A stretch of 64,000 nucleotides of DNA from assembly GCF_022008395.1 (NCBI RefSeq), contig NZ_JAIRBB010000001.1, positions 1 through 64,000 on the forward strand, written 5' to 3'. This stretch comes from Aequorivita xiaoshiensis (GTDB lineage: Bacteria > Bacteroidota > Bacteroidia > Flavobacteriales > Flavobacteriaceae). Each line of letters opens with the position of its first letter. Position 1 is the first letter of the stretch. The translations under genes and the position numbers were made by a program. Shown piece by piece: positions 49,399 through 55,744 of this stretch. The notes beneath the pieces were generated by a model. That model did no database searches and was not told the origin of the DNA. It saw only the letters and a program-made list of their open reading frames with translations.

Positions 49399-49755
49399 TT
49401 ATCCGTGTACAGACTGCCTATATTGAATTCCCCATTTTGCCAATTCGTTAATTAGTGGCGCAAGTGTTGCACCATATTCTGTTATAGCATATTCCACGGT
49501 TATAGGCTTTGTATCTAAAACTGTTCGACTAACTAAATGATTCATTTCAAGATCTTGAAGTTCTTTGGAAAGCATTTTAGATCCTATCCCATCTATTTCT
49601 CTCATTAAATCCATAAACCCAAGTTTGCTACCCTCTATTAGCGTTCCCAGAATGTGAAACTTCCATTTCCCAGATAAGATGCTCATGGTATCACTTATAG
49701 CTTGCATCCTAACCTGACATACAGGGGTGTCGTTTATTTTTGCTTTCTTTTTCAT
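49399..49755 (-). CDS. HxlR-family transcriptional regulator
   Basis: 118-residue winged-helix protein: VRMQAISDTMSILSGKWKFH, ILGTLIEGSKLGFMDLMREI, IGSKMLSKELQDLE and EYAITEYGATLAPLINELAKWG are HxlR landmarks. It has a single cysteine, C13 in TPVCQVR, at the position used by redox- and electrophile-sensing members such as YodB and HypR. Its own promoter region carries the 59-bp repeat described at 49796, with a nested dyad just downstream of a minus-strand -7 box (TATATTTG, complement of 49841-49848); autorepression is therefore likely. The second copy stands before the DsbA-like gene. Confidence 0.92.
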   Translation of the reverse strand: MKKKAKINDTPVCQVRMQAISDTMSILSGKWKFHILGTLIEGSKLGFMDLMREIDGIGSKMLSKELQDLEMNHLVSRTVLDTKPITVEYAITEYGATLAPLINELAKWGIQYRQSVHG

Positions 49756-49795
49756 TCTATTTTAAATATTAGACAATTACAACTTAAATGCAACT

Positions 49796-49854
49796 AGGTA
49801 GTTTCCTACAGGAAAATACTTCCCAGAAGGAAACGCATATCAAATATATACTTA
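49796..49854. promoter_or_regulatory. HxlR operator-promoter repeat, copy 1
   Basis: 59 bases matching copy 2 at 54651-54709 at 52 positions. The core (49801-49834) has nested dyads: outer GTTTCCT / AGGAAAC and inner GGAA / TTCC. A minus-strand -7 box (TATATTTG) at 49841-49848 points toward hxlR; TAACTTCG just beyond the repeat (49855-49862) may serve plus-strand transcription. Confidence 0.75.
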
Positions 49855-50282
49855 ATAACTTCGATACTTTATTATAATTATTAGAGAGGTAATAAATAAT
49901 ATCAATTAAGTTAGTTTCAAAAAACATGATCAAATGAAAAAACACGAGTTTCAAATAATTATGTTTCTAAGTAGTTAACTATCCAATAAATCTAAAAACA
50001 TCAGACTTCCAGTGGTTATCCTACACAGCATATAATTTCTAATCACATTAAAAGCCAATTTAAATTGCTGTATAGCATTTTCCCATTTATGGTGGAGCAT
50101 CGGTATTATACAACCTCATATATTATTTGACAACTTCTACACTGACCATGTTTACGGAATTTGTGGGTAAAGTCATGATTTGCTCGAACTTAGTTAACAT
50201 TTTGATAATGTTTAAAGGCATTAATCCAACTAAATTATATTTGTATATCTTATATAGTTTAAAAGATAGCTGCGAAATTATA
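49855..50282. other. Leader of three-gene cluster with a minus-strand short frame
   Basis: No proven gene. A plus-strand -7-like box TATATTTG at 50236-50243 lies 39 bases before the first cluster gene. On the minus strand a 41-codon frame at 49975-50100 starts MLHHKWENAIQQFKLAFNVI and ends LDLLDS; it looks protein-like and could be the end of a decayed gene such as a transposase, but is not identified. Confidence 0.45.
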
Positions 50283-51269
50283 ATGATGAATAATTTATTA
50301 GAGACGATTAAAAATACACCTTTAGTTAAATTCGAAAATTTAAGTAAAGCTAATTCCATTTCAATATACGGTAAACTAGAATACCTAAATGCAGGAAAAA
50401 GTCTCAAATCTCGCACCTCCAAGAACATGATAGATTGGGCGCTTGAAAATAAATTGTTAAAACAAGGTGACACTGTTATTGAATCTAGCTCTGGAAATAT
50501 GGCCATTGGGCTAGCTCAATTATGCACTTACTATGGTTTAAACTTAATTGTAGTGGTAGATCCTAATGCAAAACAAAGCACTCTCGATATTTTAAAAGTT
50601 TACGGCGCTACCATTGAGAAGGTTAAAAAACCCCACAGAACTGACGGTTTTTTAGGTGCACGACTGGAGCGTGTTCAACAATTAATAGATATCACTCCCA
50701 ATTCCTACTGGCCTAATCAATATAAGAATAAACAAAACCCTAAAACTTATTACGCAACAGCAAAAGAAATATTTAAGGAATTTAACGAGGCGCCCGATTA
50801 TATATTTTTATCGGTAAGCACTTGTGGTACATTAATGGGTTTTGCAAACTATATCGAGGAAAATAAACTACCAACCAAAGTCATTGCTGTAGATGCTAAA
50901 GGAAGTGTATTATTTGGGAAAAAACCGGAGAAGAGGATAATCGCTGGCCATGGTGCCAGTATTCCATCATCATTTTTGGATACCCAGCTTATACATGATA
51001 ACGTACAAGTAACCGATTTAGACTGTATAAAAGGGTGTTGGAAACTTCTTCACAATGAGGCCATCCTTGCAGGAGGCTCGACAGGCGGAACGTTAATAGC
51101 TATAGAAAATTACGCCGATAAACTTCCAAAAAATTCTAAATGCGTTATGCTTGTAGCAGATGATGGTGAGCGCTATATAGATAGTATTTATAACAAAGAA
51201 TGGATTGAGAAACAATTCTCATTGAGTCCTGAAAAAATTAAAGCTTTAACTTCCAAATGGCAGAAATAA
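50283..51269 (+). CDS. SbnA-like cysteine-synthase-fold PLP enzyme
   Basis: Fold-II PLP enzyme of about 328 residues from the ATG preceding MNNLLETIKNTPLVKFENL; longer frames add an unrelated leader. PLP lysine K42 is in LNAGKSLKSRTSKNMI; ESSSGNMAIGLAQL is the substrate-carboxylate loop and SVSTCGTLMGFANY the phosphate site. The departure from CysK consensus resembles SbnA, which joins O-phosphoserine to glutamate in 2,3-diaminopropionate synthesis, and the y4xP-type proteins. Ordinary cysteine synthesis is less likely given the partners. It overlaps the next gene by 13 bases. Very AT-rich. Confidence 0.87.
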   Translation: MMNNLLETIKNTPLVKFENLSKANSISIYGKLEYLNAGKSLKSRTSKNMIDWALENKLLKQGDTVIESSSGNMAIGLAQLCTYYGLNLIVVVDPNAKQSTLDILKVYGATIEKVKKPHRTDGFLGARLERVQQLIDITPNSYWPNQYKNKQNPKTYYATAKEIFKEFNEAPDYIFLSVSTCGTLMGFANYIEENKLPTKVIAVDAKGSVLFGKKPEKRIIAGHGASIPSSFLDTQLIHDNVQVTDLDCIKGCWKLLHNEAILAGGSTGGTLIAIENYADKLPKNSKCVMLVADDGERYIDSIYNKEWIEKQFSLSPEKIKALTSKWQK

Positions 51270-52966
51270 ATCCTGTTAATATTGCCATAGTAGGATTTGG
51301 ACCGAAAGGATTTTATGCTCTAGAGCGATTGCTTGCTTCTATTTGTAGTTTTGAAATTACACGTACCGTAAAAATACATGTGTTTAACAGCTCAAATAGT
51401 TATGCCGCAGGTGATGTTTATAATACGCACCAAGCTGAGTATTTAATAATGAATTTCCCAAACCATAAAATCGATATCTGGAACAGACAGCAACCTCCTT
51501 ACATAGTTAAAGAAGCTTTAAATTTTACATCTTGGTTAGCAAAATATCGTCCAAAAACGCTTAAATCCTTTTATGCTCCTCGAAAAATAGTGGGCGAATA
51601 CCTTATAGATGGGTATAAACAGTTAAAAAAATCTATTCCTTCAAATATCGAGATTATTGAAATTGAAGATGTTGTAACAGCCATCGATATTGAAAATGAC
51701 GCCTTGAGGATTACCACTAAAAATCATGGGGTTTTCGATACCCTTTTTTTTAGTATTATGTGCACCACAGGTCATTTAGGTGCCGGGGCTTCCTTTAACG
51801 AGAATGCTAAAACCGCTACGGAAGTGCCCTTTGTCTATCCGCTAAACGAAAAACTTGATCATTTATCAAAAGAAAAAATGATAGGTATTCAAGGTTTAGG
51901 CCTCACATTTATCGATACCCTACTTTATTTAACCGAAGGTCAAGGTGGAAAATTCTCATGTGAAAATGATGCTTTAATTTATCAACCTTCAGAAAATTTT
52001 AAAACTAAAATATACGCATTTTCAAGAACTGGTATTCCTAGTGTTCCAAGAGTGCCTAATGAAGATAGAAAGAAAACACCAAAATATTTTACAATTGAAA
52101 ATATATCTACAAAAAAGCCAATTAATTTTGAGAAACAGTTATTGCCCTTAATTAAACAAGAATACTGTTACAACTACTATCAAACACTCTTTAATATTTA
52201 TGATTGGGAGTTGAAATTCTACACAGACTTTAAAAAAGTTGAAACACAAATTGATAGCTTTCATAAAGAATTTCCTTCTGAAAATAGATTTAGTTGGAAC
52301 TTAGTAGAGAACCCTTACAACGGCACTGAGGTAAATCATCAAACTTTTCTAGCATTGTGTAGGTTTTTTATAGATGAATGTGAAAAAGGTATCACAAATA
52401 GTGCTTATCTTAATGCTCTAGGAACGTGGCGAAGTATTAGCAATTTATTTAATGAAATATATAGTTTTGGTGGTCTTGACGGAGAATCTCATAAACTTTT
52501 CGATAGTTATTACTTCAATTTGTTTAACCGAACATCATATGGACCTCCTTTATCAAATTTTAAAAAAATGTATGCTATTGCCTCTACCGGCTTGCTAGAT
52601 TTAACCTTTGGCGCAAATCCTACAGTTGAAAAATCAACTGAGAGTTTTCTACTATCTAAAGGACAGAAAGAGACGAGAATCGACTATTTGATAAACGCCA
52701 GGATTCCTCGAAAAAGTTGTCGAGAAAACACTATGTTTGAAAGTTTAATCGAAAATAATATTGGTAGAGAATTTATTAATGAAGATTATAGAACGGGGAC
52801 AATTCATATAGATAATATTGGAAAAGTGGTAAATTCAAAAAACATCAATATTTTCTTATATGGCACGCCCACTGAAGGAATTACCTTTGATAATGACACT
52901 CTTAATACAACTCGAAATAATTTTGCCTCAACTTGGGCTAATGCCCTTTGTAAAACTTTAAGATAA
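51257..52966 (+). CDS. FAD/NAD(P)-binding oxidoreductase of three-gene cluster
   Basis: 569 residues. The N-terminal dinucleotide site is VNIAIVGFGPKGFYALERLL (GxGxxG at 13-18), then FNSSNSYAAGDVYNTHQAEY and LIMNFPNHKIDIW, as in the FAD-NAD(P)-binding family (NAD_binding_9 type). A second half from about 200 (MIGIQGLGLTFIDTLLYLTE) contains another Rossmann-like motif and ends TEGITFDNDTLNTTRNNFAS. Such proteins are poorly characterised; oxidation or oxidative cleavage of an amine made by the upstream enzyme is a reasonable guess. It overlaps both neighbours, so it is firmly part of the operon. Confidence 0.85.
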   Translation: MAEINPVNIAIVGFGPKGFYALERLLASICSFEITRTVKIHVFNSSNSYAAGDVYNTHQAEYLIMNFPNHKIDIWNRQQPPYIVKEALNFTSWLAKYRPKTLKSFYAPRKIVGEYLIDGYKQLKKSIPSNIEIIEIEDVVTAIDIENDALRITTKNHGVFDTLFFSIMCTTGHLGAGASFNENAKTATEVPFVYPLNEKLDHLSKEKMIGIQGLGLTFIDTLLYLTEGQGGKFSCENDALIYQPSENFKTKIYAFSRTGIPSVPRVPNEDRKKTPKYFTIENISTKKPINFEKQLLPLIKQEYCYNYYQTLFNIYDWELKFYTDFKKVETQIDSFHKEFPSENRFSWNLVENPYNGTEVNHQTFLALCRFFIDECEKGITNSAYLNALGTWRSISNLFNEIYSFGGLDGESHKLFDSYYFNLFNRTSYGPPLSNFKKMYAIASTGLLDLTFGANPTVEKSTESFLLSKGQKETRIDYLINARIPRKSCRENTMFESLIENNIGREFINEDYRTGTIHIDNIGKVVNSKNINIFLYGTPTEGITFDNDTLNTTRNNFASTWANALCKTLR

Positions 52967-54408
52967 TGAATGTATATAAAGCCAATAAAACTTTACCTCT
53001 CGAACCAGTTACCTCACAATGGATGCACGATCTATTTGCTCAAAGCGATTTAATGCACCAATTATTAGATAAGTATGACTCTCCCATTAACATACTTAAC
53101 ATTACATCATTTAAAACTAACATTAAGGCTTATAAAAATCTCTTTAAAAACTATCATATTGATGGACAGATTTATTTCGCCCGTAAGGCTAATAAAACTG
53201 CAACCTTAATAAACTCAGCCTTGCAAGAAAATATTGGCATTGATACCGCTAGTTACAATGAATTAAATCAAGCAATTGAAAGAGGGGGCAAAGGGAAAAG
53301 TTTGGTATTAACCTCAGCAATCAAAACCCCTAATCAACTTAAGTTAGCACTAGCTCACGAGGTACCTGTTATCTTAGACAATCAAGATGAGTTTAATTTA
53401 TATAATAAAATTGCAAGTTCAGCTGGGAAGACTGCACATATAGGCGTTCGAATAAGTGGATTCAGGGTTAACGGGCAAAAACTTTACAGTCGATTCGGGA
53501 TTGATATTGATTCGATTAAAGATTTTATCAATGATAATTTTATAAATAATGAAAAATTTCCAAACCTTAGAATCTATGGATTACATTTCCATCTAAACGG
53601 ATATTCTACCATTGAAAGAAGTCAGGCATTATTGCAAACCATAGAAATTGCTAAATATTTGAGAGCGAATTCTTTCCCGATAAAATTTATTGATATAGGT
53701 GGCGGAATTACCATGAATTACCTAAAAGATGAAACGCAATTAGAAGCATTTAAAACTGAACTTCAATCTCAAGTAATGCATATCGAGAAGGAGGAACTTA
53801 CATTTAGACGTAATGGTTTAGGATACAAGAATATAGACGGAAAACTTTCTGGCACCTTAGAAACTTATCCATATTTTAATAAGATACATACAGAAACATT
53901 TATCAAGAAAATTTTAGATTTTCAAAATAATGGTGAAACCATTGCTCAATCCTTAAATAAAAACAATCTTCAACTTAGAATTGAACCTGGAAGATCATTA
54001 TTGCAACAAGTAGGAATCACCGTTGCTAGGGTTAATTATAGGAAAAAAGATAGCGAAGGTCGTAATTTAATAGGATTGGAAATGAATATGTCACAACTCA
54101 AGAGTGCGAGTACTGACTTCTTATTAGATCCGTATATAATTTATAGAAATCCTATTAAAAACAACACAGAGTGGAAGAAAGTCTATTTTACAGGGGCTTA
54201 CTGTTTAGAACAGGATATTATTCTTAAAAAAGTTTCCGAAATTCCTCAAATTCCAGAAATTGGCGACATCGTTGTATTTGTAAATACAGCAGGTTACTTG
54301 ATGCACTTCTATGAAAGACAAGCACATCTTTTTAACCTATCGAACAACTTAACTTTGGATACTATGGAAACAGAGTGCCTTGAAATTTCAGATTTTAAAT
54401 TGGATTAA
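52966..54408 (+). CDS. Y4yA-like fold-III PLP decarboxylase
   Basis: 480-residue member of the Orn/DAP/Arg decarboxylase-2 (alanine-racemase fold) class resembling the Y4yA family. PLP lysine K74 is in IYFARKANKTATLINSA; the barrel has GLHFHLNGYSTIERSQALLQ and FIDIGGGITMNYL; LRIEPGRSLLQQVGITVARV and the catalytic-cysteine region TGAYCLEQDIILKK complete the site. It should decarboxylate a D- or meso-configured or diamino acid centre. The start shares a base with the previous stop (TAATG). Expected substrate: the product of the two upstream enzymes. Confidence 0.86.
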   Translation: MNVYKANKTLPLEPVTSQWMHDLFAQSDLMHQLLDKYDSPINILNITSFKTNIKAYKNLFKNYHIDGQIYFARKANKTATLINSALQENIGIDTASYNELNQAIERGGKGKSLVLTSAIKTPNQLKLALAHEVPVILDNQDEFNLYNKIASSAGKTAHIGVRISGFRVNGQKLYSRFGIDIDSIKDFINDNFINNEKFPNLRIYGLHFHLNGYSTIERSQALLQTIEIAKYLRANSFPIKFIDIGGGITMNYLKDETQLEAFKTELQSQVMHIEKEELTFRRNGLGYKNIDGKLSGTLETYPYFNKIHTETFIKKILDFQNNGETIAQSLNKNNLQLRIEPGRSLLQQVGITVARVNYRKKDSEGRNLIGLEMNMSQLKSASTDFLLDPYIIYRNPIKNNTEWKKVYFTGAYCLEQDIILKKVSEIPQIPEIGDIVVFVNTAGYLMHFYERQAHLFNLSNNLTLDTMETECLEISDFKLD

Positions 54409-54650
54409 AGCTATTTACCTAAGGCGTACATTATACCAACTAATTTTCATAGATTTTTATAAGAATAGTTTTCTTTATTCACCTACCATCTTAGAGGCTT
54501 ATGTCATACCGGTTTTAAATAATCTGTACAAATCAGCATATGGTTTGTATTTTTTTAGTCGTTCTATTTCAAGGATATGAGTGCTACATTCAAGATAGTT
54601 TTGAACACCTTCACGATATTCTACTGATTATTTTTTCAAGGAATAAAATA
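54409..54650. other. Spacer with decayed minus-strand frame
   Basis: No intact gene. On the minus strand, 54499-54627 is an open frame without a start codon reading SVEYREGVQNYLECSTHILE, then IERLKKYKPYADLYRLFKTG and stop. It looks like the end of a real protein gene; family not recognised. It sits right next to operator copy 2 and mirrors the remnant near copy 1. Confidence 0.4.
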
Positions 54651-54709
54651 AGGTAGTTTCATACAGGAAAGCACTTCCCAAAAGGAAACCCATATCAAAC
54701 ATACACTTA
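54651..54709. promoter_or_regulatory. HxlR operator-promoter repeat, copy 2
   Basis: 52 of 59 bases match copy 1; the dyad core GTTTC...GAAAC with inner GGAA/TTCC is kept at 54656-54689. A plus-strand -7 box TATATTTG (54718-54725) just beyond it would drive the DsbA-like gene with a leader of about 90 bases. A minus-strand TATGTTTG is also preserved, pointing at the decayed frame, so the copy retains the divergent layout of an hxlR promoter. Confidence 0.75.
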
Positions 54710-54820
54710 AATAACAGTATATTTGTATTCAAACTTGAAAACATAACACCTTAAACCTGAAACAAATAGAGCTACAGTAAATGTATTCAAGTAAATAGAT
54801 AATAATTTAAAAACAATATC

Positions 54821-55744
54821 ATGAACAACGATAAAATAAAAAATAATCCACTGCTTTGCGATCCAAAAACAGGAATTTGCGAAATGCCAGGCGAAGATAT
54901 GCAAGATTCAACAGTAGAAAAAGCTCAAGCCACAGTTAAATCAGTTAAGCTAGTTTACTTCACCGACCCTATTTGTTCTTCTTGTTGGGGAATTGAACCT
55001 CAGTTGAGAAAACTGAAGTTAGAGTATGGAGCCCATATCGAAATTGAATACAGAATGGGTGGTCTTTTACCAGATTGGAGTTACAATAGTGGAGGTATAG
55101 GAAAACCATCTGATGTTGCTTCACATTGGGATGAAGTTAGCGTCTATTACGATATGCCAATTGACGGAGATTTATGGTTAGAAGACCCCTTAGATTCATC
55201 ATACCCACCTTCTATTGCCTATAAGGCAGCACAAATGCAAGATAAAGAGAAAGCCAATTTATTTATGCGCGAAATTCGTGAAATGGTTTTCTTACAAAAG
55301 AAAAATATTGCGAAATGGGAACATTTAGCAACTGCTGCCAGAAATGTTGGTCTTGATGTTGCGCAGTTAAAATCGGATTTTGAAGGAAGGGCAAAAACAT
55401 TATTTCAAGACGATTTAAAAACTGCAAGAGAATACGGTGTTAGAGGATTTCCTACAATTTTCGTAGTCGACAACGACGGGAATAAAGAAACCGTTTACGG
55501 CGCTAGACCTTATGCGTTTTATGAAATGGCAATTTTGAAAACGAATCCAAATATCTTGAAAAGCGAATACAGTAAAAATTGGGAATCACTTTTTGCTACC
55601 TACCCTACTCTTACAGCTAAGGAGTTTTCTGAATTATCAGGTACGCCTAGAGAGGAAAGTGAAAACGTATTGAACGAACTAACAGCCAAAGGTTCTTTAG
55701 AAAAACTATCGACTAAAAATGGTTCTATTTGGAAAATAAAATAG
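54821..55744 (+). CDS. DsbA/SpxH-family thioredoxin-fold protein with C-terminal winged helix
   Basis: 307 residues. A thioredoxin-like DsbA-type domain carries the CxxC site C52-S-S-C55 in FTDPICSSCWGIEPQLRKL, with GVRGFPTIFVVDN containing the cis-proline. The family includes FrnE-like and ClpXP-adaptor SpxH/YjbH proteins. There is no signal peptide, so it is cytoplasmic. Two extra cysteines (C13, C20) lie in an N-terminal extension LLCDPKTGICEMPGE, and the last 45 residues (LTAKEFSELSGTPREESENV, LNELTAKGSLEKL) resemble a winged helix. The HxlR operator upstream suggests induction by thiol or electrophile stress. A terminator follows. Confidence 0.87.
   Translation: MNNDKIKNNPLLCDPKTGICEMPGEDMQDSTVEKAQATVKSVKLVYFTDPICSSCWGIEPQLRKLKLEYGAHIEIEYRMGGLLPDWSYNSGGIGKPSDVASHWDEVSVYYDMPIDGDLWLEDPLDSSYPPSIAYKAAQMQDKEKANLFMREIREMVFLQKKNIAKWEHLATAARNVGLDVAQLKSDFEGRAKTLFQDDLKTAREYGVRGFPTIFVVDNDGNKETVYGARPYAFYEMAILKTNPNILKSEYSKNWESLFATYPTLTAKEFSELSGTPREESENVLNELTAKGSLEKLSTKNGSIWKIK

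Follow-up and report, generated by a model that had tools for sequence, protein, structure and literature searches.

In staphyloferrin B biosynthesis, SbnA, SbnB and SbnH form a route to diaminopropionate and citryl-diaminoethane, and O-phosphoserine is supplied by SbnI (cited in PMC12704722). The cluster y4yB-y4yA-y4xP-y4xO-y4xN-y4xM of Sinorhizobium NGR234 holds Y4yA, an SbnI-like ParB-fold protein, a fold-II pyridoxal phosphate (PLP) synthase, an oxidoreductase annotated as octopine/nopaline dehydrogenase, IucA/IucC and an MFS protein. Diaminopropionate is combined with flavin N-oxygenation in the alanosine pathway, which needs a carrier protein and further enzymes (PMC7347517), and in nonribosomal peptide synthetase (NRPS) diaminopropionate subclusters of Bacteroidetes sbnA homologues are paired with sbnB (PMC9248904). 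Here we describe a three-gene operon of Aequorivita xiaoshiensis (Flavobacteriaceae), located in a window of 64,000 nucleotides (contig NZ_JAIRBB010000001.1, positions 1 to 64,000), that shares features with all of these systems. Its genes lie on the plus strand and encode an SbnA-family fold-type-II PLP beta-replacement synthase (gene 1, 50283..51269, 328 amino acids), a flavin N-monooxygenase-like FAD/NAD(P)H protein (gene 2, 51257..52966, 569 amino acids) and a Y4yA-type fold-III PLP decarboxylase (gene 3, 52966..54408, 480 amino acids). Genes 1 and 2 overlap by 13 bases and genes 2 and 3 by a single base, and the ATG start of gene 1 sits within a longer frame opening with TTG. These three enzyme classes had been named in a first-pass annotation made from the letters alone, and they agree with the coordinates, the Pfam matches and the TIGR03945 match. 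The trio is a real, conserved and uncharacterised pathway, most likely a modified SbnA/SbnB diaminopropionate route whose central enzyme is a flavin N-monooxygenase and whose last is a decarboxylase; we recognised no description of it in the literature searched, which left most subscription papers outside.

Like staphyloferrin B, the trio begins with an SbnA-family enzyme carrying SbnA residues and includes a fold-III PLP decarboxylase, and an SbnI-like protein accompanies it in 3/80 loci. Unlike staphyloferrin B, it comes without SbnB above cut-off and without IucA/IucC, a flavin N-monooxygenase-like enzyme stands in the middle, and the decarboxylase is of the Y4yA type, with SbnH appearing only at rank 45 among its fold matches. 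It shares Y4yA (28%), the SbnI-like protein and a fold-II PLP synthase with the NGR234 cluster, but not the dehydrogenase-annotated oxidoreductase, IucA/IucC or MFS protein; the NGR234 synthase y4xP, with a score of 236, stays below the SbnA cut-off of 350 and has no equivalents of SbnA Y152 and S185, while the position of R132 differs between two alignments. That the trio is simply the rhizobial y4x cluster was ruled out, as y4xO is annotated as an octopine/nopaline dehydrogenase and not as a flavin enzyme. Its flavoenzyme is homologous over the full length to the L-aspartate N-hydroxylases FzmM/CreE, with the same fold, the Asn and part of the basic pocket; however, identity is about 23%, the positions of R276, R412, N413 and R416 are unconserved and no lyase gene was seen beside the trio. 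Neither the carrier protein and further enzymes of the alanosine pathway, as far as these are described in PMC7347517, nor the sbnB and NRPS genes of the subclusters in its own phylum (PMC9248904) are part of the trio.

A conserved three-gene set

The neighbourhood was searched for in about 85,000 species genomes with an alignment of four trio decarboxylases (from the window, two Sulfitobacter plasmids and one Tsukamurella plasmid), and the best 80 of 97 loci were kept. The order sbnA-FAD-Y4yA on one strand was found in 77/80 loci retrieved by Y4yA alone with this trio-built query, which favours the trio clade, and in 81/84 when the window and loci L017-L019 are counted; this speaks for a dedicated gene set, as the first-pass annotation had supposed. 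The three loci without the full trio are L030, at a contig end, and L093 and L094, two Obscuribacterales metagenome-assembled genomes (MAGs) without the FAD gene. In the latter two (L093 1454-8741; L094 1934-9259) a long N-terminal region is fused to an SbnA-like domain and followed by Y4yA in a distinct operon, together with an SDR-like gene, a Cys/Met-metabolism PLP enzyme and a DAO-type FAD oxidoreductase (Pfam on three L093 proteins).

Hosts are mostly Bacteroidota (Arenibacter, Kriegella, Algoriphagus, Belliella, Sphingobacterium, Euzebyella and others), joined by Sulfitobacter, Oceaniglobus, Rhizobiaceae MAGs and the actinobacteria Arthrobacter, Kocuria, Paeniglutamicibacter and Galactobacter. 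Further trio records carry the labels Planctomycete (MAGs), Chloroflexi/Anaerolineae (MAGs) and Kiritimatiellaeota; of these, the latter two branch among the Bacteroidota in the protein tree, which may reflect transfer or wrong binning. In the same tree (78 loci, without L098, L032 and L076, and without support values) the window trio branches with marine Flavobacteriaceae on a long branch. Over these 78 loci, pairwise correlations between the tree distances of the three proteins are 0.82, 0.80 and 0.94, in keeping with joint inheritance, although shared ancestry alone could also yield them. The gene starts of the relatives were set by rule, so that their intergenic gaps are approximate; in Kocuria palustris (L098 3949-7467) FAD protein and Y4yA are joined in one 1172-residue frame with both Pfam domains. 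The trio is thus conserved from Bacteroidota to Actinomycetota, including a fusion and with no constant extra genes, and its small size would allow reconstitution in vitro, by which its metabolite could be found directly.

The three enzymes

Gene 1 matches PF00291 at 5e-57 and passes the curated cut-off of the TIGR03945 PLP_SbnA_fam model (380.4 bits against 349.95). Its closest match in the PDB is SbnA of Staphylococcus aureus (5d84, 8e-65). By alignment, K42 is the PLP lysine and R127, Y147 and S179 correspond to SbnA R132, Y152 and S185, residues credited with selective O-phosphoserine binding (PMC12414870). Equivalents of R132 and Y152 are kept in 82/83 sequences, the remaining one having a gap, and that of S185 in 79/83; L093 and L094 are included in these counts and in those for Y4yA. 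An SbnA-type enzyme distinct from a plain cysteine synthase, as proposed at first pass, is therefore upheld. The plain cysteine synthase was rejected with the cysK model at 184 bits against a cut-off of 351, and gene 1 lies well under the cut-offs of every cysteine-synthase model listed. A cysteate/taurine route was set aside, with 157 bits to the cysteate synthase model against a cut-off of 600.

Gene 2 matches PF13454 NAD_binding_9 at 2.5e-22. Searched alone against the PDB, it returned one match, the L-aspartate N-hydroxylase 8cp2 of the FzmM/CreE group (5e-25, near full length), and a profile of 48 trio FAD members returned 8cp2 first (2.5e-82) and then class B flavin monooxygenases, which it matches over the FAD domain. 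Its predicted structure, with a predicted local distance difference test (pLDDT) of 93, gave Foldseek template-modelling (TM) scores of 0.86/0.82 to 8cp2; PvdA, SidA and other N-hydroxylases (acting on ornithine, cadaverine and putrescine) came after it with far lower scores, as did some Baeyer-Villiger monooxygenases. At about 23% identity to FzmM, gene 2 retains the catalytic Asn62 as N66, present in 82/82 sequences, and this active-site Asn is important in class B monooxygenases (PMC10404684). When the positions around the FzmM substrate defined in the same paper were transferred by hand onto the alignment of gene 2 with 8cp2, a basic residue was found at the R13 position in 79/82 sequences and at R266 in 82/82, and Arg at the R577 position in 75/82; the R409 position is Arg in only 56/82, and R276, R412, N413 and R416 have no conserved counterpart, so that the substrate of FzmM cannot be read across to the trio enzyme. 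Sequence, fold and Asn place gene 2 among the class B flavin N-monooxygenases, and the lack of a conserved aspartate-binding Arg/Asn cluster sets it apart from the L-aspartate N-hydroxylases. From the family and fold match, the kept Asn and the incomplete aspartate pocket, gene 2 probably works like an N-monooxygenase without being an aspartate N-hydroxylase, and a larger anionic amino acid would fit as its substrate.

Gene 3, which matches PF02784 at 1.3e-23, has plasmid homologues annotated as "Y4yA family PLP-dependent enzyme". K74 (the PLP lysine), H209, and E340 and R343 of an EPGR motif are present in 84/84 sequences, and the active-site C413 in 83/84, the other showing a gap. The top Foldseek matches of its model (pLDDT 92.6) are D-Orn/D-Lys and diaminopimelate decarboxylases, with N-citrylornithine decarboxylase and SbnH lower. 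Sequence and model together support the assignment as a Y4yA-type fold-III PLP decarboxylase.

The SbnB step and the proposed pathway

The SbnB cleavage is NAD-dependent, and the ornithine-cyclodeaminase (OCD) and octopine-dehydrogenase families act on opine-like or related amines. Proteins of these kinds stand beside Y4yA in other clusters: an OCD-family protein with SbnB as best NCBIfam match, below cut-off, in those of M. avium (92.8 bits) and A. vitis (102.9 bits), and a protein annotated as octopine/nopaline dehydrogenase in NGR234 and Bradyrhizobium. It is chiefly because of these neighbours, and because the SbnA product is an opine-like secondary amine, that we assign the flavoenzyme to the SbnB step. 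Y4yA clusters with such another oxidoreductase, SbnB-like or octopine-dehydrogenase-like, are seen in L118, L120, L119 and L020, and the differences among clusters are a possible module swap. In 39 genomes tested (those of 39/80 loci, chosen for spread over genera and of unstated completeness) SbnB above cut-off was found in none, a negative limited by the fact that 0/14 control genomes pass either; the A. xiaoshiensis genome itself gave a single match of 32 bits to the SbnB model, whose cut-off is 326.9.

A clue to the first substrate comes from three alphaproteobacterial trio operons (L087-L089), which carry homologous small proteins upstream of sbnA; the first half of the L088 protein matches a free serine kinase (7e-5) and SbnI (1e-3). 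SbnI-like homologues are also encoded directly before Y4yA in NGR234 (y4yB) and two genes before it in Agrobacterium vitis, and a Bradyrhizobium protein shares their annotation, a likeness by annotation alone. By sequence, all these would be putative kinases.

Given the conserved SbnA residues and the SbnI-like proteins of three sister operons, we infer that the SbnA-like enzyme would couple O-phospho-L-serine, with loss of its phosphate, to the amino group of a second amino acid (probably L-glutamate), yielding N-(2-amino-2-carboxyethyl)-glutamate (ACEGA) or a near analogue. The FzmM/CreE-like flavin N-monooxygenase, supported as to class, may then oxygenate a nitrogen of this ACEGA-type product with NAD(P)H and O2, in the place of SbnB. 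The secondary amine would become a nitrone, which on hydrolysis, a reaction open to nitrones, could give 2-oxoglutarate and an N-hydroxylated 2,3-diaminopropionate unit. Finally the Y4yA decarboxylase, likewise assigned to its class, would take off the alpha-carboxylate and leave a small N-oxygenated ethylenediamine-type compound. Our preferred reading, built on sequence comparison and structural models and to be taken as tentative at slightly under even chances, is a self-contained and stress-associated pathway in which an N-monooxygenase replaces SbnB by these steps. The fuller claim, that a widespread undescribed trio makes an N-oxygenated ethylenediamine-type stress metabolite via a nitrone, linked to catalase and to osmotic and oxidative stress genes, is a possibility that we would put clearly on the doubtful side. 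If the flavoenzyme does replace SbnB, diaminopropionate chemistry gains a further type of oxidoreductase, and the label "SbnA" may be misleading for genes that lie outside siderophore clusters; if it does so by N-oxygenation, this is a new chemical solution to the SbnB step common to several phyla.

Several observations weigh against this pathway. The substrates and product of the trio enzymes are predicted only, and the aspartate pocket of gene 2 is incomplete as described, the window copy itself having T551 at the R577-equivalent position. Sub-cut-off OCD-family matches in 23/39 trio genomes could act in trans, and the control result limits what the lack of SbnB can say. On an M. chimaera plasmid, Y4yA and a divergent synthase have no annotated oxidoreductase within the stretch seen, and homologues of the FAD protein are also found apart from the other two genes. 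SbnI-like proteins, restricted to three of the 80 loci, have 154-159 residues against 242-256 in the solved kinases and no Pfam match. Neighbours vary, at least 152/177 neighbour families occurring no more than twice among 138 neighbours, and the catalase of the window lies 5.5 kb off, outside the operon and without the long C-terminal domain. The departures S43, K39 and T551 from conserved positions may mean that the window copy is altered.

The strongest competitor is the model of the first-pass annotation itself, in which the flavoenzyme oxidises and cleaves the SbnA product in the manner of SbnB, with no N-oxygenation, and Y4yA delivers plain ethylenediamine or another diamine. Its placing of the flavoenzyme is retained here, since SbnB-like and octopine-dehydrogenase-like enzymes adjoin Y4yA elsewhere and SbnB passes its cut-off in 0/39 trio genomes. 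Its chemistry fares less well, as the family and the fold of gene 2 (TM 0.86 to FzmM) are those of N-hydroxylating monooxygenases and the Asn, with the role assigned to it in class B monooxygenases (PMC10404684), is invariant, all of which makes N-oxygenation likelier than plain amine oxidation. We consider this model unlikely, though it deserves to be kept in mind.

Siderophore functions and stress-gene neighbours

A different proposal would have the trio supply a diamine building block to a siderophore or metallophore assembled elsewhere. Gene 1 belongs to the SbnA family, and related Y4yA clusters hold IucA/IucC, a TonB receptor or iron ABC transporters. In contrast, IucA/IucC was found in 0/39 trio genomes and not in that of A. 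xiaoshiensis, by a search that was positive in 2/14 control genomes (NRPS assembly in trans lying beyond it), and the enriched neighbours are stress genes. Without IucA/IucC, whose absence, like that of SbnB, had already been remarked at first pass, the trio is not an NRPS-independent (NIS) siderophore cassette, and we regard a siderophore role as improbable.

Neighbours were scanned for 40 of 45 loci (138 of 169 selected neighbours), and the commonest 25 of 177 families were examined. These are led by SDR (8), response regulators (6), histidine-kinase ATPase domains (6), long catalase (5) and DUF421 (4), and DUF2382, DUF2383 and methionine sulfoxide reductase occur twice each; SDR, DUF421, DUF2382/2383 and YciF-type neighbours are presumed by us to be stress genes. 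Close co-directional neighbours are catalase in L072, L077 and L088, SDR in L033, L039, L084 and L097, and MscL in L040. A long catalase falls inside the trio locus of about 13 kb in 8/39 genomes against 0.08 expected, where the expectation presumes random placement, independent genomes (not all of these are independent) and a 15.4-kb span, and uses a hand count of 22 long catalases in the 39 genomes; the catalase of L035 is cut at the locus end. The association, which is not proof, points to a stress-linked role and suggests a physiological role unrelated to iron. Because stress neighbours are frequent and the trio is accompanied by neither a synthetase nor a constant exporter, the product of the proposed pathway would probably be an intracellular stress metabolite rather than a siderophore.

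Insertion site and state of the window copy

In the window, the trio region forms an insertion of roughly 4.9 kb between two divergent genes outside the pathway, an HxlR-type regulator on the left (49399..49755, minus strand; PF01638) and a DsbA/FrnE-like protein on the right (54821..55744, plus strand; PF13743/PF01323), which we take to be FrnE by name. It is bordered by two copies of a 69-base intergenic element (49787..49855 and 54642..54710) that are 84% alike. In five congeners HxlR and FrnE are divergent neighbours separated by a single copy of the element (matched over 37-60 bases), and five more congener loci with a strong FrnE match have no HxlR within the 1.5 kb examined. The 222-base HxlR–FrnE spacer of the nearest congener matches the left flank over bases 1-130 (87%) and the right flank over bases 36-218 (89%). 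The empty site and these flank matches indicate that the cassette was inserted here with a duplication of up to about 95 bases. The FAD gene was found in 0/27 congeners (three of them less than 90% complete), and no transposase was found among open reading frames (ORFs) of at least 80 amino acids between the flanks. The duplicated element belongs to the HxlR/FrnE divergent promoter region, each gene retaining its own copy, and may be an HxlR operator.

It is the empty site in congeners, and not base composition, that shows the insertion. The first-pass annotation had read transfer from low G+C, citing a 60-base sample at 53101; its value of 18.3% is as stated, but 908 of the 63,941 such stretches in the window have 18.4% or less. 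G+C is 33.2% in the trio and 35.8% in the window as a whole, and the G+C of the trio genes at third codon positions (GC3, 0.24-0.30) lies within the 0.22-0.40 of 22 other window ORFs. The G+C argument for transfer was rejected, as composition gives no sign of the insertion.

An acquired cassette could also be drifting, and the window copy might be a non-working remnant. The bordering duplication and the lack of the FAD gene in the 27 congeners are compatible with this, as are departures from the family at 8/66 columns conserved at 90% or more in SbnA (for example D>S43, adjoining the PLP lysine, and G>K39), 5/51 in the FAD protein and 4/101 in Y4yA, counted over 78 loci without L098, L093, L094, L030, L032 and L076. 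The three frames are nevertheless open and overlap as in relatives, the catalytic residues are intact, and L095, L099 and L100 show more departures in each of the three proteins, so that a remnant has little to recommend it.

Flavoenzyme homologues outside the trio

Least probable of all is that the flavoenzyme uses a different amino acid, turning aspartate into nitrosuccinate and hence nitrite in the style of alanosine-type diazeniumdiolates, with SbnA and Y4yA giving the amine partner. Its nearest characterised relatives form nitrosuccinate (PMC10404684), alanosine couples such an enzyme with diaminopropionate (PMC7347517) and two non-trio homologues have a nitronate monooxygenase gene adjacent or one gene away, but the aspartate-binding positions are unconserved and no lyase is among the 25 commonest neighbour families, a genome-wide search for nitrosuccinate lyase not having been made. 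The two homologues are those of L006 (357-3096; G070), adjoining a nitronate monooxygenase gene (PF03060) in the same order, and of a Parageobacillus plasmid (L003 8992-13240), one gene away from another (PF03060), hinting at nitro-compound chemistry. Homologues are also carried by a small Helicobacter pylori plasmid (L005) and a Vibrio crassostreae plasmid (L002), the latter beside an MFS transporter, and further matches listed come from three more H. pylori plasmids and one V. lentus plasmid. On a Staphylococcus epidermidis plasmid from a camel (L004 2679-13089) the homologue stands among LeuA, LeuCD, TauD-like, cupin and aminotransferase genes, a run that looks like a biosynthetic operon.

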